From: Christensenella sp. UBA1252
Lineage (GTDB): Bacteria; Bacillota; Clostridia; Christensenellales; CAG-1252
DNA length: 27,387 nt
Reading direction: 5' to 3'
NCBI GenBank assembly: GCA_002308575.1
Contig: DBVY01000016.1
Location: 7,236 to 34,622 of the forward strand
Positions 5,002 through 23,728 of the stretch are shown here, piece after piece. The position numbers and the translations under genes were made by a program. The notes beneath the pieces were generated by a model. It did no database searches, was not told the origin of the DNA, and saw only the letters and a list, made by a program, of their open reading frames with translations. Every line of letters begins with the position of its first letter. Within the stretch, counting starts at the first letter, position 1.

Positions 5002-5006
5002 TAAAG

Positions 5007-5197
5007 GGCTTTGTCTATTGCGCAACTGCGTCGTTTACTGCTTTCGGTTCCGCGCGGTTACGTACTAAGGAGTATGCGCCGACGCGCGAGTCAAAGCGCT
5101 CTATCGCCCAAAAGCGGTAGGGCGCTTTTTTATTGCGATCGGTAGCGCTTTCTCGCTTGCTCGCTCCGAAAGTGCCGTTTCGTTCGCGGGGCGGCGC
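5007..5197 (+). repeat. 191-bp intergenic repeat, copy 2 (downstream of iscU)
   Basis: Second copy of the 3082-3272 repeat in the same orientation, 1925 bp away, beginning five bases after the iscU stop. Together the copies bracket iscS-iscU as direct repeats. The flanking sequence after 5197 differs from that after copy 1 until the shared TCAATCGCTATT at 5238-5249. Confidence 0.93.
5095..5131 (+). terminator. Rho-independent terminator inside repeat copy 2
   Basis: Identical to the hairpin at 3170-3206: 13-bp stem, loop ccaaaa, six T. Expected to end the iscSU transcript. Confidence 0.9.
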
Positions 5198-5446
5198 GTT
5201 GATCGGCTCGTTCGCCTTCGCGCTTGTTCCTTTATGATCAATCGCTATTTGCTCCGGAGCCCATCTCCGCTCCGTGAAAAGGATGCTTTAATAAATCCTT
5301 GCATTCGCATCAATATCCAAAGCCTTTTGATTGGGATTTGGAAGCAGACGTAAAAAATGGCGTCTGTTTTTTTGTTTTTTTTCGGTCTTGCAAGAAAAAC
5401 TCCCTAAGTTGCGCGACCTTTGCGCGGAAGCTGTTTTAATTATTAC
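5198..5446. other. Gene-free spacer after repeat copy 2
   Basis: No convincing coding frame. It contains the palindrome GCTCCGGAGC, a small hairpin (AAGGAT...ATCCTT), an imperfect CCAAAGCC/GGGATTTGG pairing and the terminator at 5343-5373. Since iscU transcripts should already stop at 5131, the last terminator has no obvious client unless a small RNA is made here; no clear promoter was seen for one. Confidence 0.4.
5343..5373 (+). terminator. Rho-independent terminator in spacer
   Basis: AGCAGACG (5343-5350), 10-base loop, CGTCTGTT (5361-5368) with one G-U pair, then a T-rich run. It shields the downstream AAA+ operon from upstream transcription. Confidence 0.7.
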
Positions 5447-5476
5447 TTGAATATTGTGCTTTCGATATGATAGAAT
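5447..5476 (+). promoter_or_regulatory. Promoter of the AAA+/DUF2357-like operon
   Basis: TTGAAT (5447-5452), 18-bp spacer, TAGAAT (5471-5476), ending 19 bases before the ATG at 5496, with AAAAGGGA as ribosome site. Confidence 0.6.
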
Positions 5477-5495
5477 AAAGCAAAAGGGATAGATT

Positions 5496-7889
5496 ATGGA
5501 AAATAATAACAAGATGACCGCTTTTGAAAAGTATTACGAGAGCTCGTCCAAGACGCCGAAACGGAAACTTCCGTCGATCAACGGCAAGCGCCGCAACATT
5601 TTTTTTATTGCTTTGGCGATCCTGTTCGAGGCGCTGATCTTTGCGATCCCCGTATGTTTTTCGGTGGATGCGGCGGGAAAGGTTGGTCATTTCAAGTTTA
5701 TTTACAACGTCTTTTCCGAGGACGGGTTCGAATTGCTCGGGCCGATCGTTTTCGCGGCGCATTTGATTCCGTTTTTGTTGACGGTCGCATTCGCGATCCT
5801 GCATTTCAGGTATCTGTTTCAAAATAACGACAACTTCAATAAAAACACGGGTCTTGTGGTCGGATCCTGCGCGGTGGTCGCGTTTCTGTTTTTGTTGGTC
5901 GGGATCTACGTCGTGTTGTTCTATCAAGAGCCCAAAGCCGATACGACTTACTATACGTTGACCTTCTTGCCCATCACGGCGCTTGCGATGCTGATGCTGA
6001 TGGATTCCGTTTTGAACGGGAGATATCGCGAAGTGCAGGAGAAAGTGACGAGGAAGACGTCCGAGATTCGGATACTGATGGTCGTTTTTGTGTTGTTGTT
6101 CGCGTTGGTCGCGATCCTTGCGATCTTCTCGAAGATCTTGATCGCCAATTATACGGGCGATTATACGCAAAGAATCAAAGTCAGCGGCTACGACGTGTTG
6201 GCTCACTATAAATCTTATGGCGAAAGCTTCCAGGTCCTCGCGTTCGTTCTGCTTTCCGTGATCATTCTCGTCGCGCTTTCCGCGATCCTGACCCTGCTTT
6301 CGTTTTTCCGCAATTCAAGGCTGTTCAAATCCTTCTTTATTTGTTCGGTTTCCCTTGATTTCTTTTGTGTGGCGGGTCTTGCGGGGCTCGGTTTGTCCTA
6401 TCAGTACATCGAAAAAGCCAATATGGAAAGGCTCGCCGAACTGTTTGAGTATTACGGCGTTACGCTGAACGAGCAATGGGCGTTTTATTCCGATACGATA
6501 TATTACTTCATTGCGGCGGCTGTGTTGATGGTTGCCCTTTTCCTGTTTAAGCCCTATTCGCGTTTGGTGGCGGAGGAGATCCGCGCGGCGAGGAACAAGC
6601 GCGCCGAATCCGCGCCTCTTCCTTCCGCTGAAATGCCGGCGGAAGCGCCTGCTTACAGCGCCCCCACGGCGCCCGAGCCTATGAGAAAAGCCGCAGCCGC
6701 GCCTCATTCCGAACCGATCGGAACGGCGGAAACGCCTCTCAGAGTGGAAACGCAGGCGTTGAAACAACCCCTTGCGATCGATCAATGTCCGCCGTTTACC
6801 TTCCTTGATTCGCAGACCGCCGCGTTTAACGCGGATCGCGCCCAGCGCCGTCAGGCTGCGTTCCCGGAGCCTTCGCTCCCCGCGTTGGTCCACTTCGTAA
6901 AGGAGTACGCCAAGAATTCTCGATTGCATTTGTCCTACACCGCCGAAGATATCGCAACTTTCGTTGCGGGGCTTGGGATCAGCCGTCTTTCGATCTTGCA
7001 GGGTATGAGCGGAACGGGTAAGACCAGCTTGCCCAAGATCTTTTCGGAAGCGGTCTTCGGCAACTGCGAGATCATCGAAGTCGAATCGAGCTGGAAGGAC
7101 AAGAACGAACTTTTGGGCTATTACAACGAATTCTCGAAGACGTACATTCCGAAGAGCTTTACGCAGGATCTGTATAAAGCCAAGCTGAATCCCGATATTC
7201 TGACCTTTATCGTTTTGGATGAAATGAACTTGTCCAGAATCGAATACTATTTCTCCGATTTTCTTTCTTTGATGGAAAACGAGGAAGATAAGCGCGAAAT
7301 CAAACTCGTAAACGTTAAGATCGCGAATTACGAATCCGGCGCGCGCGTTCCCTACAAAATGTTGAAAAACGATATGACCTTGCAGATCCCGAAAAACGTT
7401 TGGTTTATCGGAACCGCGAACCGCGACGAGTCCACGTTTGAGATCTCGGACAAGGTCTACGACCGCGCAAACACGATGAACTTCAACCGCCGCGCGAAGA
7501 AGATCGTCGATTTTGACGAGCCGATGCAACCGCGTTTCCTTTCGGCGAACGTTTTGTCCGCATTGTTCAAAGACGCGACCCAAAAGAAGCATTTCGATCT
7601 TTCGGATTGCAAGCAGATCCAAAAAGCGGAGGAGATCCTCTTGCCGTACAATCTGTCTTTCGGCAACCGTATCGAGCGCCAGATCGAAGATTTCGTAAAG
7701 ATTTATTCGGCGTGTTTCGAAGGGCAGGACGTAACGCGAGAAGCGGTCGAAAAGATCTATCTCAGCAAGGTCGTCGCCAAGTTGGAATGGAAGACCGTTG
7801 AAAACAAAGAAGAGCTTGCGGCGCAATTCGAAGAGATCGGGTTGAAAAAGTGCGCCGAATTCGTGCGGAAACTGAACGAGGATATCTAA
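5496..7889 (+). CDS. Eight-helix membrane protein fused to a McrB-like AAA+ ATPase
   Basis: 797 residues. The N-terminal half has eight predicted membrane helices (about 35-57, 81-103, 118-143, 152-173, 192-216, 244-271, 277-301, 332-352). A Pro/Ala-rich linker follows (about 370-430), then a soluble AAA+ domain from about 465 to the end. The ATPase shows Walker A GMSGTGKT (503-510), Walker B with IVLDEMNLSRIE (D575, E576) and a sensor-like stretch FIGTANRDES around N642. The LDEMNLSRIEYYFSDFL segment is typical of the McrB/MoxR branch; the McrB GTP-specificity motif (MNxxDR) is not seen, so ATP is the likelier nucleotide. The next gene starts on the base after the stop codon, which implies coupled translation. 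The role is unknown. I infer a membrane-anchored remodelling or defence ATPase from domain order and partner only. Confidence 0.85.
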   Translation: MENNNKMTAFEKYYESSSKTPKRKLPSINGKRRNIFFIALAILFEALIFAIPVCFSVDAAGKVGHFKFIYNVFSEDGFELLGPIVFAAHLIPFLLTVAFAILHFRYLFQNNDNFNKNTGLVVGSCAVVAFLFLLVGIYVVLFYQEPKADTTYYTLTFLPITALAMLMLMDSVLNGRYREVQEKVTRKTSEIRILMVVFVLLFALVAILAIFSKILIANYTGDYTQRIKVSGYDVLAHYKSYGESFQVLAFVLLSVIILVALSAILTLLSFFRNSRLFKSFFICSVSLDFFCVAGLAGLGLSYQYIEKANMERLAELFEYYGVTLNEQWAFYSDTIYYFIAAAVLMVALFLFKPYSRLVAEEIRAARNKRAESAPLPSAEMPAEAPAYSAPTAPEPMRKAAAAPHSEPIGTAETPLRVETQALKQPLAIDQCPPFTFLDSQTAAFNADRAQRRQAAFPEPSLPALVHFVKEYAKNSRLHLSYTAEDIATFVAGLGISRLSILQGMSGTGKTSLPKIFSEAVFGNCEIIEVESSWKDKNELLGYYNEFSKTYIPKSFTQDLYKAKLNPDILTFIVLDEMNLSRIEYYFSDFLSLMENEEDKREIKLVNVKIANYESGARVPYKMLKNDMTLQIPKNVWFIGTANRDESTFEISDKVYDRANTMNFNRRAKKIVDFDEPMQPRFLSANVLSALFKDATQKKHFDLSDCKQIQKAEEILLPYNLSFGNRIERQIEDFVKIYSACFEGQDVTREAVEKIYLSKVVAKLEWKTVENKEELAAQFEEIGLKKCAEFVRKLNEDI

Positions 7890-9359
7890 ATGCCGGATCT
7901 TGACACGCTGAACGAATGGTATTCGTCTTTTGCGGCGTTCGTCAAAAAATACGACGGCGTATATTTTTCCGAATTGGATTATTTTTGCACACGCAATTTG
8001 AACCTCTATGCGCTGTACGAAAAGCCGGATTTCGACGAGATCGCCCTCGTCGTGCAAAAGGTGCAAGCCTCGTTTCCTTCGATCAGCCGCATTTTCGGAA
8101 AGCCGATCATTCATTTGATCGAGCGCGAAGAAATATTGCCCGTCGAGTCCGTTCGCTATATCAACACGAAGTCGATCGATCACGTCGCATCCCATTCCGA
8201 ACTGTGGGCGGATGTGAACGAAGAGGGCATCAAGCCGCGCAAACTGCTTTCGCGAACGTACCAAGACAATTATTCGATTTACGAAAACGTTGTGTTTGCA
8301 AACACGATCGACCTGATCCTCGGCTATATTCGCGCCAAAGCCAAGATCTTAAATGATCTGATCATTACCCAAAAACTGCATAACGTCAACATTTTGGATC
8401 GAAACAATCACCTCGATTATTACATCGTTCTCGGAAAATTGCACACGAGTTATATCCGCAATTACGGGCGCTATATGGACGATGCGGCGGCGCTCAAAGA
8501 GTCGCTCGTCGGTTTGTATCAAAAGATCTCGGGCAGGCTGTATAAAAAGGTGTATCGTTGCAATAAGGATAAGAAGATCGCCAAACTGTATAAGACGAAC
8601 ATTCTCTCGATGGACAAAGATTATAAAAAGATCTATTCGCTGTACCGCTTTTTCGAGAGCCGAAAGAAAGAGGATTTTTCGACGCTGGCACCCTTCGATA
8701 ACGACGATTATTTTTGGTTCTCGGAGATTCTGCTCCTGTTTTCGTTGCAGCACTTCGGCTTCTCGGAAGAGGAGCGGCAAGCCTTATGCTTTGACGCGCT
8801 CGATCTTTCCGTTTCCGCCGATCGCTATAAACTGCGCATCAAAAAGGCGGACGTCGGCGATTCTCGCGCCCTCCTTTTGACCTTTCACAATCAGATCGAC
8901 TATTCGATCTTGCTCTATCCCGTTTGCCGTTCGGGTCCGCTTCCGAAACTCGAAGACAAAGCGGGCGCGGACGAAGTCGTCTTCCTGTCGCCGATCCCGT
9001 CGGACGGCGCGCGCCTCGTCGGCATCACCGAGCTCGATTCTTTCCGCCGTTTGCAACAGATCCTCTTAAAGGGCATGATCCTTTCTTCCGAGAAGTTCGA
9101 CGTTTGCCCCTTCTGTTTGGGCAAGATGAAAAAGAATAAGGACAGAGAGCGTTACGTTTGTCCGTCCTGCAATCAAGTCATCGAAAAGCTCGTTTGCCCC
9201 GAAAAGAACTTACCCTATTTCAACAGTTATTTTATCCGAACGCCCGAGGCAAAAAAGAGCGGAGAGATCGTCGAACCCGACGCGAGAATGAATTTCCGCA
9301 ACATCAACCGACTGACCGCAAGCGCTTATCTTTGCCCGCATTGTAAAAAGATCCATTGA
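7890..9359 (+). CDS. DUF2357/McrC-like partner protein with C-terminal zinc ribbons
   Basis: 489 residues with no signal peptide or membrane helix, so probably cytosolic. Residues about 117-140 (RTYQDNYSIYENVVFANTID) resemble the core of DUF2357, the region through which McrC-type proteins engage McrB. The C-terminus holds a clear zinc ribbon, C406-P-F-C409 and C424-P-S-C427, and further Cys at 436 and 482/485 (CPHC) that could make a second site. Usual members of this group carry a PD-(D/E)XK nuclease C-terminal to DUF2357; I see no such motif here. The ATG directly follows the TAA of the ATPase gene, with GAGG as ribosome site, so the two products are probably made in step and act together. 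The DUF2357 assignment comes from pattern recognition and needs a profile search. Confidence 0.65.
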   Translation: MPDLDTLNEWYSSFAAFVKKYDGVYFSELDYFCTRNLNLYALYEKPDFDEIALVVQKVQASFPSISRIFGKPIIHLIEREEILPVESVRYINTKSIDHVASHSELWADVNEEGIKPRKLLSRTYQDNYSIYENVVFANTIDLILGYIRAKAKILNDLIITQKLHNVNILDRNNHLDYYIVLGKLHTSYIRNYGRYMDDAAALKESLVGLYQKISGRLYKKVYRCNKDKKIAKLYKTNILSMDKDYKKIYSLYRFFESRKKEDFSTLAPFDNDDYFWFSEILLLFSLQHFGFSEEERQALCFDALDLSVSADRYKLRIKKADVGDSRALLLTFHNQIDYSILLYPVCRSGPLPKLEDKAGADEVVFLSPIPSDGARLVGITELDSFRRLQQILLKGMILSSEKFDVCPFCLGKMKKNKDRERYVCPSCNQVIEKLVCPEKNLPYFNSYFIRTPEAKKSGEIVEPDARMNFRNINRLTASAYLCPHCKKIH

Positions 9360-9361
9360 GT

Positions 9362-9829
9362 TTACAAAAACTTTTTCAAAGCTTCCACCGAGCCCGAAAA
9401 CATCGCGAGCGTGTCTTTTGCGATCGCGCCCGTTTCGTCGCTGACCGAAACCTCGTTTTCGTTTAAAGCGCGGGTCAGGTCGGTGATCCCCATGTTCGTT
9501 CCCTTGATCAGTTTTTCCGCGATGTTGCTGTTGCTTTTGTCGCCGAAGATCGATAGTTTTACCATTTTCTTTTGCCATTTTTGTTTCATCGTGCCGTACG
9601 CTTCGGGTTCCACGTCCAGTTTTTTCATTTGATCGCTGACGCGTTCGCACAGCGCGGCGTACTCGCCGACGAGCTGTTTGACGTATAAGCGCAGGTCGCC
9701 GATCGCCGTCTTTTCAACGACGTCCAAAGATTGAATGCCATACACGAGCGATTTCATACATTCGTTTAAAAGTTCTTCTTCGTTTTCCGCGAACACGCGT
9801 TTGTTTTCGTTTTCCGTCATTGCGTCCAT
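9362..9829 (-). CDS. Small helical protein of a ferritin-like/DUF2383-like firmicute family
   Basis: 155 residues, entirely helical in character, with no Cys motif, signal peptide or membrane segment. The closing pattern (SNSNIAEKLIKGTNMGITDL, then an acidic loop and a final helix ending EALKKFL) is the hallmark of a widespread uncharacterised firmicute family of about 145 residues that I relate to four-helix ferritin-like/DUF2383 proteins. Typical metal-binding Glu/His pairs are not evident, so a metal role is not claimed. The start at 9829 has GGGAGG at good spacing; a second ATG lies three codons in. It converges on the operon to its left, stop codons two bases apart and no terminator between them, so its transcript probably runs antisense into that operon, and the reverse. 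Confidence 0.7.
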   Translation of the reverse strand: MDAMTENENKRVFAENEEELLNECMKSLVYGIQSLDVVEKTAIGDLRLYVKQLVGEYAALCERVSDQMKKLDVEPEAYGTMKQKWQKKMVKLSIFGDKSNSNIAEKLIKGTNMGITDLTRALNENEVSVSDETGAIAKDTLAMFSGSVEALKKFL

Positions 9830-22438: not shown

Positions 22439-23728
22439 ATGAAAAAATCGGTTTTCGGCACGGACGGCGTGCGAGGGATCTACGGAAAAACGCTAACGGA
22501 CGAAACGGCGTTTCGTCTTGGAGTCGCGCTTGGCAGTCGGGGCGACGTTTTGCTCGGCGGGGATAACAGGGTTTCCACGCCCGCGCTTCTGTCCGCGCTT
22601 GCGGCGGGCGTTAAAGCGGGAGGAGGAATCGCGCGCTCGGTCGGACTCGTAACGACGCCCGCCCTCTATTATCTTTTGACGAAACGCGAAGAACCGTTCG
22701 CCGTGATGGTGACGGCGAGCCACAATCCGCCCGAGCACAACGGCTTGAAAGTGTTTTCGCGCGAGGGAAAACTCGGGGAAAAAGATCGCCTTTCGATCGA
22801 AGAGGCGATGGCGAAAGCCGAAATCCCGCTCGCTTATGAGGAACCGAAGGTCGAAAACGAGGCGCTCTCTCGATACGAAGATTTTCTTCTGTCCTTCGCG
22901 GGTGATCTCTCCGGCGTTTCGGTTTTAATCGATCTCGCGGGCGGCGCGGGCTACGCGTTTCGCGATCTCTTACAAAAGACGGGCGCGACGGTCTTCGTTC
23001 GGAACGCGCGGCACACGGGGGAGAAGATCAACGAAAATTGCGGCGCGCTGTTTCCGTCCGTTCTTCGGAAAGAAGTGCTTGCCGTTCGCGCGGATCTCGG
23101 CTTCGCGTTGGACGGGGACGGCGACCGCATCGTCGCGGCGAACGGAAAGGGCGAGATCTTGGACGGTGACAAGATCTTATATTTGCTCGCGTGTCGCATG
23201 AAAGAAAGAGGCAAACTCAAAAGGCATAAGGTCGCGCTGACCGTGATGACGAACAGCGGCGTTTTGGAGAGCTTGTCCGAAAAGGGGATCGAAGCCGTTT
23301 GCTCCGCGGTCGGGGACGCCGCCGTCGTGGAAACGATGCGCGCGGAAGGCTTAAATCTCGGCGGCGAGCAATCGGGGCATATCGTACTCGGCGACCTTTT
23401 GATGACGGGCGACGCATTGCTCGTCGGGATCGCGCTGATGAAGATTCAAAAGGAAGAGGGAAGACTGCCCGACCCGTCCGTTACGATCTATCCGCAAGTT
23501 TTGTTGAACGTGCCCGTTCGAGATAAAACCGCCGCGCTCTCCTCGAAAGTTCGCGAAACCGCCGAGAAGATCAAAGGCGCGTTCGAAAAGGGGCGCGTTC
23601 TCGTGCGCGCAAGCGGAACGGAAAACCTGATCCGCGTAATGACCGAGCATCCGTCTTTCGAAAGAGCGGAAAGCGCCGCGAAAGAGATTGCGCGTGTGAT
23701 CGAAGAAGAAGATAAAAAGAAGGTTTGA
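22439..23728 (+). CDS. glmM: Phosphoglucosamine mutase
   Basis: Converts glucosamine-6-phosphate to glucosamine-1-phosphate, the step after GlmS. 429 residues with the N-terminal FGTDGVRG, phosphoserine S94 in TASHNPPEHNG, metal loop DGDGDR (D225, D227, D229) and the C-terminal phosphate-binding RASGTENLIRVM. The start matches the family N-terminus. There is no Shine-Dalgarno upstream; instead TACAAT (22428-22433) lies five bases before the ATG, so the mRNA may be leaderless or nearly so. It is divergent from glmS across 93 bp, an arrangement that keeps two successive pathway steps together. Confidence 0.95.
   Translation: MKKSVFGTDGVRGIYGKTLTDETAFRLGVALGSRGDVLLGGDNRVSTPALLSALAAGVKAGGGIARSVGLVTTPALYYLLTKREEPFAVMVTASHNPPEHNGLKVFSREGKLGEKDRLSIEEAMAKAEIPLAYEEPKVENEALSRYEDFLLSFAGDLSGVSVLIDLAGGAGYAFRDLLQKTGATVFVRNARHTGEKINENCGALFPSVLRKEVLAVRADLGFALDGDGDRIVAANGKGEILDGDKILYLLACRMKERGKLKRHKVALTVMTNSGVLESLSEKGIEAVCSAVGDAAVVETMRAEGLNLGGEQSGHIVLGDLLMTGDALLVGIALMKIQKEEGRLPDPSVTIYPQVLLNVPVRDKTAALSSKVRETAEKIKGAFEKGRVLVRASGTENLIRVMTEHPSFERAESAAKEIARVIEEEDKKKV

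Follow-up and report, generated by a model that had tools for sequence, protein, structure and literature searches.

What becomes of an McrBC system, known as a nucleic-acid cutter, when its motor lies in the membrane and its partner has no recognisable nuclease? The question is raised by two adjacent genes in a stretch of 27,387 nucleotides from Christensenella sp. UBA1252 (assembly GCA_002308575.1, contig DBVY01000016.1, positions 7,236 to 34,622 of the forward strand), here called the window. Gene A (5496..7889) codes for a polytopic membrane protein of 797 residues with a C-terminal AAA+ domain of the NxD McrB type, and gene B (7890..9359) for a DUF2357 (McrC-type) protein of 489 residues with a probably degenerate nuclease-like region and zinc-ribbon motifs. 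Both genes, and all features described below for them, lie on the + strand. The pair is very probably a two-gene, membrane-embedded, nuclease-free derivative of NxD McrBC, closest to soluble operons of the CoCoNuT-like kind. No description of a membrane-embedded NxD McrBC pair was found in the literature searched. An original prediction, made from the sequence of the window, had taken the pair for an ATP-driven membrane machine derived from McrBC-like defence; its anatomy and its McrBC-like derivation were supported, whereas its claims of a missing McrB motif and of a replaced nuclease have to be revised.

The two genes are tightly linked. The ATG of B is found directly after the stop codon of A, as had been predicted, and lies in the same frame. 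Relatives were collected by a strict pattern scan with one genome per species, which returned 163 matched stretches and 121 relatives; 80 loci were kept (L056-L135), and in 76 of these B could be read together with the sequence ahead of it. A immediately precedes B in 72 of the 76, so that a survey of pairing suggested by the original prediction came out in favor of a conserved unit. The order B, lipoprotein-like gene, A occurs in three loci, and one (L134) shows no A.

The ATPase

The assignment of A draws on its open reading frame, on Pfam and PADLOC matches, on motifs and on an alignment of homologues. Its N-terminal part contains eight hydrophobic segments (residues 35-53, 84-102, 124-142, 155-173, 193-211, 247-265, 276-294 and 333-351), followed by a poorly conserved Pro/Ala-rich linker (residues about 366-428, 6591..6779) and by the AAA+ domain (about residues 440-797, 6813..7886) with Walker A (GMSGTGKT, residues 503-510, 7002..7025) and Walker B (IVLDE, residues 572-576, 7209..7223). 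The eight helices, the linker, Walker A at 503-510 and Walker B at 575-576 were all located where they had been predicted. For the alignments, 45 homologues of A and 73 of B were used, each set chosen among 120 matches listed. Walker A, D575/E576, N642, D644 and E645 are invariant in the 45 A sequences, as are C431, P432, F434 and D438 of a CPxF...D motif ahead of the AAA+ domain (CPPFTFLD, residues 431-438, 6786..6809). The Pfam family AAA_5 matches the window's A below the cut-off (E 0.0056) and 41 of the 45 homologues at E <= 0.01.

The McrB motif, which had been thought to be missing, is present in a shortened form. At sensor 1 the protein reads IGTAN-R-D-E (N642-R-D-E, 7419..7430), which corresponds to the NxD motif; according to the CoCoNuT study (PMC11090510), this is a shortened NxxD of a major McrBC branch, with E or D usually next. 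Because [IV]GTANxDE is also read in 71 of the 72 adjacent pairs, A is placed by motif in the NxD branch. The PADLOC model PDC-M26A, the ATPase of the candidate system PDC-M26, matches A with an E-value of 1.9e-48. This model matches NxD ATPases of the membrane, CoCoPALM-like and CoCoNuT-like kinds alike and therefore cannot separate them. The sole PDB chains matching A by sequence are those of E. coli McrB (weak, E 0.042), and the profile of the 45 homologues retrieved no PDB chain at E <= 0.01.

In a predicted model of the membrane part, two four-helix units follow each other in tandem (residues 25-182, 5568..6041, and residues 187-362, 6054..6581), each having a beta hairpin behind its first helix, and a repeat signal between the two units can also be detected in the sequence. 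Both modules are predicted to fold like claudins. The likeness to claudins and TARPs, which are eukaryotic four-helix membrane proteins, is one of predicted fold with no sequence relation claimed, and A differs from them by tandem units fused to a motor. Helices were counted in the 53 As of at least 740 residues among the 72 adjacent pairs, five shorter frames (three without helices) being set aside, and at least six are predicted in 52 of them, the exception being L133.

The DUF2357 partner

B was assigned from its open reading frame, Pfam, its homologues and a McrC-like fold. Residues 1-270 (7890..8699) make up a helical DUF2357 region, in which a beta stalk spans 75-84 and 118-127 and the Pfam match covers 64-133. 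The DUF2357 match is below the Pfam cut-off in the window's B (E 0.0047), but 35 of the 73 homologues match at E <= 0.01 (best 2.8e-6), which bears out the predicted DUF2357 likeness. PADLOC gave no match to B at E <= 1. The McrC-like arrangement is kept and extends into the nuclease part, where B probably retains a degenerate, motif-less PD-(D/E)xK-like region (residues 274-398, 8709..9083) with a terminal [ED]SFRRxQQ helix. A conserved (D/E)xK pair was sought in the 73 sequences and not found; the acidic columns 335, 361, 362 and 383 are 77-96% conserved (the window has Q at 335), with no conserved basic residue two places on.

The three cysteine motifs of the original prediction, CPFC (406), CPSC (424) and CPHC (482), were all recovered. 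The first two make up zinc ribbon 1 (C406, C409, C424, C427; 9105..9170), whose profile matches the zinc ribbon of the ribosomal protein eL43 (E 0.0011), and a likely second zinc site would combine C436 with CPHCxxxH at 482-489 (9195..9356). C406, C409, C424, C427 and C436 are invariant in the 73 homologues, and C482 and C485 are at least 90% conserved. The idea that zinc ribbons had replaced the nuclease is not borne out: the nuclease-like region is probably kept in a degenerate state, and the ribbons are common to the soluble CoCoNuT-like relatives.

Distribution and kinship

The pair is a real NxD McrBC variant spread across several lineages of Bacillota and Mycoplasmatota. Relatives were found in Anaeroplasma, Acholeplasma, Izimaplasma, Erysipelotrichaceae, Bacilli and Clostridia, among others, mostly in metagenome bins; a named isolate, Paracholeplasma vituli, has a B of 31% identity. 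A full-length B is present in 2 of 20 genomes of the window's family; the counts are 6 of 200 genomes for the order (three of them full-length), 1 of 391 for the class, and 5 of 13 and 13 of 55 for the families of two other carriers. At the thresholds used there is one copy per genome, and one bin, RGIG3910, has two loci in the pattern scan (L088, L091). The distribution is patchy, with single absences unsure because many of the genomes are incomplete bins. The three loci with the lipoprotein-like gene (L128:7706-14498, L129:2856-7755 and L135:9941-14580) belong to divergent Bacillota bins, and the B of L135 has no CxxC motif. These bins, to judge from their names, presumably come from termite gut.

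Trees of the AAA+ domain were built in full, again after removal of four long rows, and in a separate earlier version. The membrane As form one clade (100/100 with 16 rows, 98/100 without the four long rows), and the rows nearest to them are the soluble ATPases of Treponema (L133) and of record MT835511 (96/95; 81/97). Similar four-gene operons reside on plasmids of Nostoc, Deinococcus, Pseudanabaena, Rhodoferax and Polaromonas; the first tree puts them on the membrane-A side of CoCoPALM (92/99), a placement that the second leaves open. CoCoPALM-like ATPases from the same bacterial family branch separately in the first tree (82/54, five rows), the second (99/97, with two four-helix rows) and the earlier one (99/95).

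The soluble operons consist of a superfamily 1 (SF1) helicase with AAA_11 and AAA_12 over the cut-off, a protein of 535-547 residues, the ATPase and the DUF2357 protein, as typed from all genes in MT835511 and Nostoc and from the first two in Treponema L133. Weak MkoB-like matches were obtained for the 535-547-residue protein of MT835511 and Nostoc, together with a winged helix-turn-helix match in Nostoc and none in Pfam for that of L133. In gene order, this composition agrees with the CnuH-CnuE-CnuB-CnuC arrangement that the CoCoNuT study reports for Type II (PMC11090510). The operon of MT835511.1 (33941-45916, L137), in a record with an unverified bacteriophage label, runs from SF1 helicase through the 535-residue protein to NxD ATPase and DUF2357 protein near the record end.

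Other NxD or McrB-like loci were met on the way. A third type of ATPase, with four membrane helices and the motif VGTANKDDS, is found in L027 and L028 (genomes G017 and G015) beside a 430-residue gene and, by eye, a signal-peptidase-like fragment. On a plasmid of Enterococcus faecium (L176, NZ_MT074686.1 84544-86823), a McrB-like gene is split by an IS982-like insertion sequence and followed by further insertion sequences.

Genomic neighbourhood

Pfam was run on the window neighbours up to position 23728. They include carB, nifS, nifU, a Na+/H+ exchanger, spoIIE, methionine genes and a few without family. The pair itself lies between nifU and a 155-residue gene followed by the exchanger. Its G+C content (0.50 for A, 0.49 for B) falls at the bottom of the range measured for eight neighbours (0.49-0.59), and the site is marked by neither a flanking repeat nor a tRNA. 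The 155-residue gene (9362-9829, - strand) has a weak DUF2383 match (E 0.0027) and stands beside a Na+/H+ exchanger in genome G010 as well (86% identity).

Of the 13 genomes of the genus, only G010 is a full-length carrier besides the window's genome. In G010 the flanks of the window site enclose other genes, among them one for a Cys/Met-metabolism enzyme, judged by similarity, and one that looks Rrf2-like by eye, in place of the pair, which is found at another site, after a short-chain dehydrogenase gene; at that site the window's genome has a different downstream gene and no pair. Since the pair occupies different sites in the two genomes, the unit or the genome around it was rearranged after they split. 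A Cys/Met-metabolism gene, and by eye an Rrf2-like one, follow nifU in G010 and in several other relatives; at 5002-9361 of the window both are absent and A-B is present.

A third gene keeps the same position in six related loci at most. Four related loci (L072, L077, L082 and L099) have a very long gene after B (765 to 3,281 residues in the stretches read); three of the four begin, by eye, like signal peptides, and the first 666 residues of the gene in L099 gave no Pfam match.

Possible modes of action

From the analogy to McrBC, A would form a McrB-like ring in which the N-terminus of each subunit carries two claudin-like four-helix units instead of coiled coils or a base-reading domain, and a hexamer would gather a dozen such units in the membrane. 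The DUF2357 stalk of B would enter the pore of the ring and enhance hydrolysis, the part that McrC plays for McrB. Because B combines a dead nuclease with zinc ribbons, these may bind a nucleic-acid or ribonucleoprotein trigger, upon which the ring could distort or open the membrane units, so that the membrane is damaged or resealed in a defence of the abortive type. A mechanical or membrane-directed output seems most likely since no nuclease is recognisable in the pair, none recurs beside it and the four-helix units stand in tandem. Defence is favored by the patchiness, the locus difference and the kinship to CoCoNuT-like operons. Taken jointly, McrBC-like identity and defence with a membrane output come close to an even chance without reaching it. 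In the fully specified version, a McrBC ring would have exchanged its nuclease for the membrane; B would detect nucleic acid that is foreign or aberrant, and claudin-fold units, two or three from each subunit and brought together by the hexamer, would then open or remodel the membrane of wall-less and gut bacteria. This version is tentative and, as a whole, rather unlikely.

Several observations weigh against a defence role. The suggested enrichment near defence genes was not seen: 121 PADLOC families match, none of them in more than two of the 124 neighbours of the 80 loci. Mobile genes are lacking among the scanned window neighbours, and viral copies of the pair were not found. Together with the parallel to CoCoPALM, these results would leave room for a role in the envelope. 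As a separate observation, one or two neighbours of the 80 loci match defence models strongly, namely those of reverse-transcriptase systems (DRT, best E 1e-115) and HEC-06.

It is accordingly possible, if still doubtful, that the pair is an envelope machine whose ring acts on proteins of the membrane or surface by pulling, sorting or assembling them, a role akin to the one suspected for CoCoPALM. The helices predicted almost throughout the long As fit this proposal, as does the lipoprotein-like protein between B and A in three loci. The same genome has on contig C41 (L005:3525-11866) another NxD ATPase/DUF2357 pair, flanked on either side by a signal-peptidase-like gene (one match exceeds the Pfam cut-off, the other is weak); behind it come GGDEF/EAL genes and genes whose starts resemble signal peptides, so that the locus is CoCoPALM-like. 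Within three genes of A, G010 encodes a signal peptidase (Peptidase_S26), though the same cluster exists without the pair in the window's genome; no signal peptidase was detected among the scanned window neighbours, the 80 loci not having been tested for one. On the other side, exported neighbours, scored by a crude rule, are not enriched near the pair (13/59 at +1, 12/57 at +2, 9/56 at -2 and 8/54 at -3 versus 70/421 farther away), a third gene at a constant place is missing, and the zinc ribbons and dead nuclease of B point to nucleic acid.

An improbable alternative is a lipid-handling transporter, in which the tandem four-helix part works like LetA and the AAA+ ring supplies the power. LetA of E. 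coli, a member of the PqiA family, likewise has two tandem four-helix modules, with no ATPase domain. It is the best Foldseek row for the membrane model of A (9n8w_A, 372 columns, probability 0.96), but the E-value is weak (7.3e-3), the overall TM-score is 0.25, and the 50 VIA-align rows listed do not include LetA. No sequence relation was found: a profile comparison with a shallow LetA/PqiA alignment reached a probability of 4.7 over 23 columns (E 0.0086), and a search of A's own genome with PqiA (PF04403) did not match A at E <= 0.1. An MCE domain is also lacking among the scanned window neighbours.

Restriction of nucleic acid by a nuclease hidden in B or by an unlinked partner gene is more improbable still. 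The McrC-like arrangement of B does reach into the nuclease part, and CoCoNuTs whose McrC nuclease is lost or inactive employ separate nucleases (PMC11090510), but neither a conserved (D/E)xK pair nor a recurrent neighbouring gene speaks for it. Least probable is a MoxR- or dynein-type AAA+ chaperone with a housekeeping role, McrB-like in its P-loop fold only and with a zinc protein as partner, for although Pfam gives only the generic AAA_5 and AAA, below the cut-off in the window's A, and the A profile found no PDB chain, an NxD motif, a DUF2357 partner and a McrC-like fold are a specific fit to McrBC and the distribution is patchy.

One McrBC lineage thus appears to have kept motor, activator and zinc ribbons, dropped every recognisable nuclease and embedded its motor in the membrane by repeated four-helix units. 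If the defence reading is true, a McrBC motor can exchange cutting for membrane action as its output; if the envelope reading is true, a restriction-type motor was recruited for work at the cell surface, as suspected for CoCoPALM. The pair is tractable, with only two genes in about 3.9 kb and relatives in the named isolate P. vituli.

Comparison with known systems

E. coli McrBC likewise combines an AAA+ and a DUF2357 protein in the same gene order, and its McrC resembles the predicted fold of B. The pair shares with canonical McrBC the Walker A and B motifs and the DUF2357 partner next door. It has NxD where McrB has NxxD, a membrane part where McrB has a methylcytosine-reading domain (no modified-base-reading domain was matched by Pfam at the N-terminus), and zinc ribbons and no conserved catalytic pair where McrC has a catalytic PD-(D/E)xK nuclease.

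In CoCoPALM (PMC11090510), an NxD ATPase is likewise tied to the membrane and accompanied by a DUF2357 protein, and a function in pilus-type assembly is suspected. The difference is in the anchor, which is FtsB-like with coiled coils and comes with signal peptidases, and in the trees, where CoCoPALM-like rows fall in a clade separate from A.

The closest match is to CoCoNuT operons of the Type II order. According to the same source (PMC11090510), these are made up of the CnuH helicase, CnuE, the CnuB ATPase and CnuC. Like the pair they have an NxD ATPase, and the inactive nuclease-like domain and CPxC zinc ribbons of their DUF2357 protein seem to have counterparts in B. Where the McrC nuclease is inactive, CoCoNuTs have a HEPN or other nuclease gene close by; the pair adjoins neither a helicase nor a nuclease-effector gene, and no nuclease was seen among the scanned window neighbours, those of the 80 loci not having been scanned with Pfam. 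Ahead of its AAA+ domain, A has a polytopic membrane part and the Pro/Ala linker in place of long coiled coils, as judged without a coiled-coil program. The helicase-containing soluble operons are the nearest rows to the membrane As in the trees.

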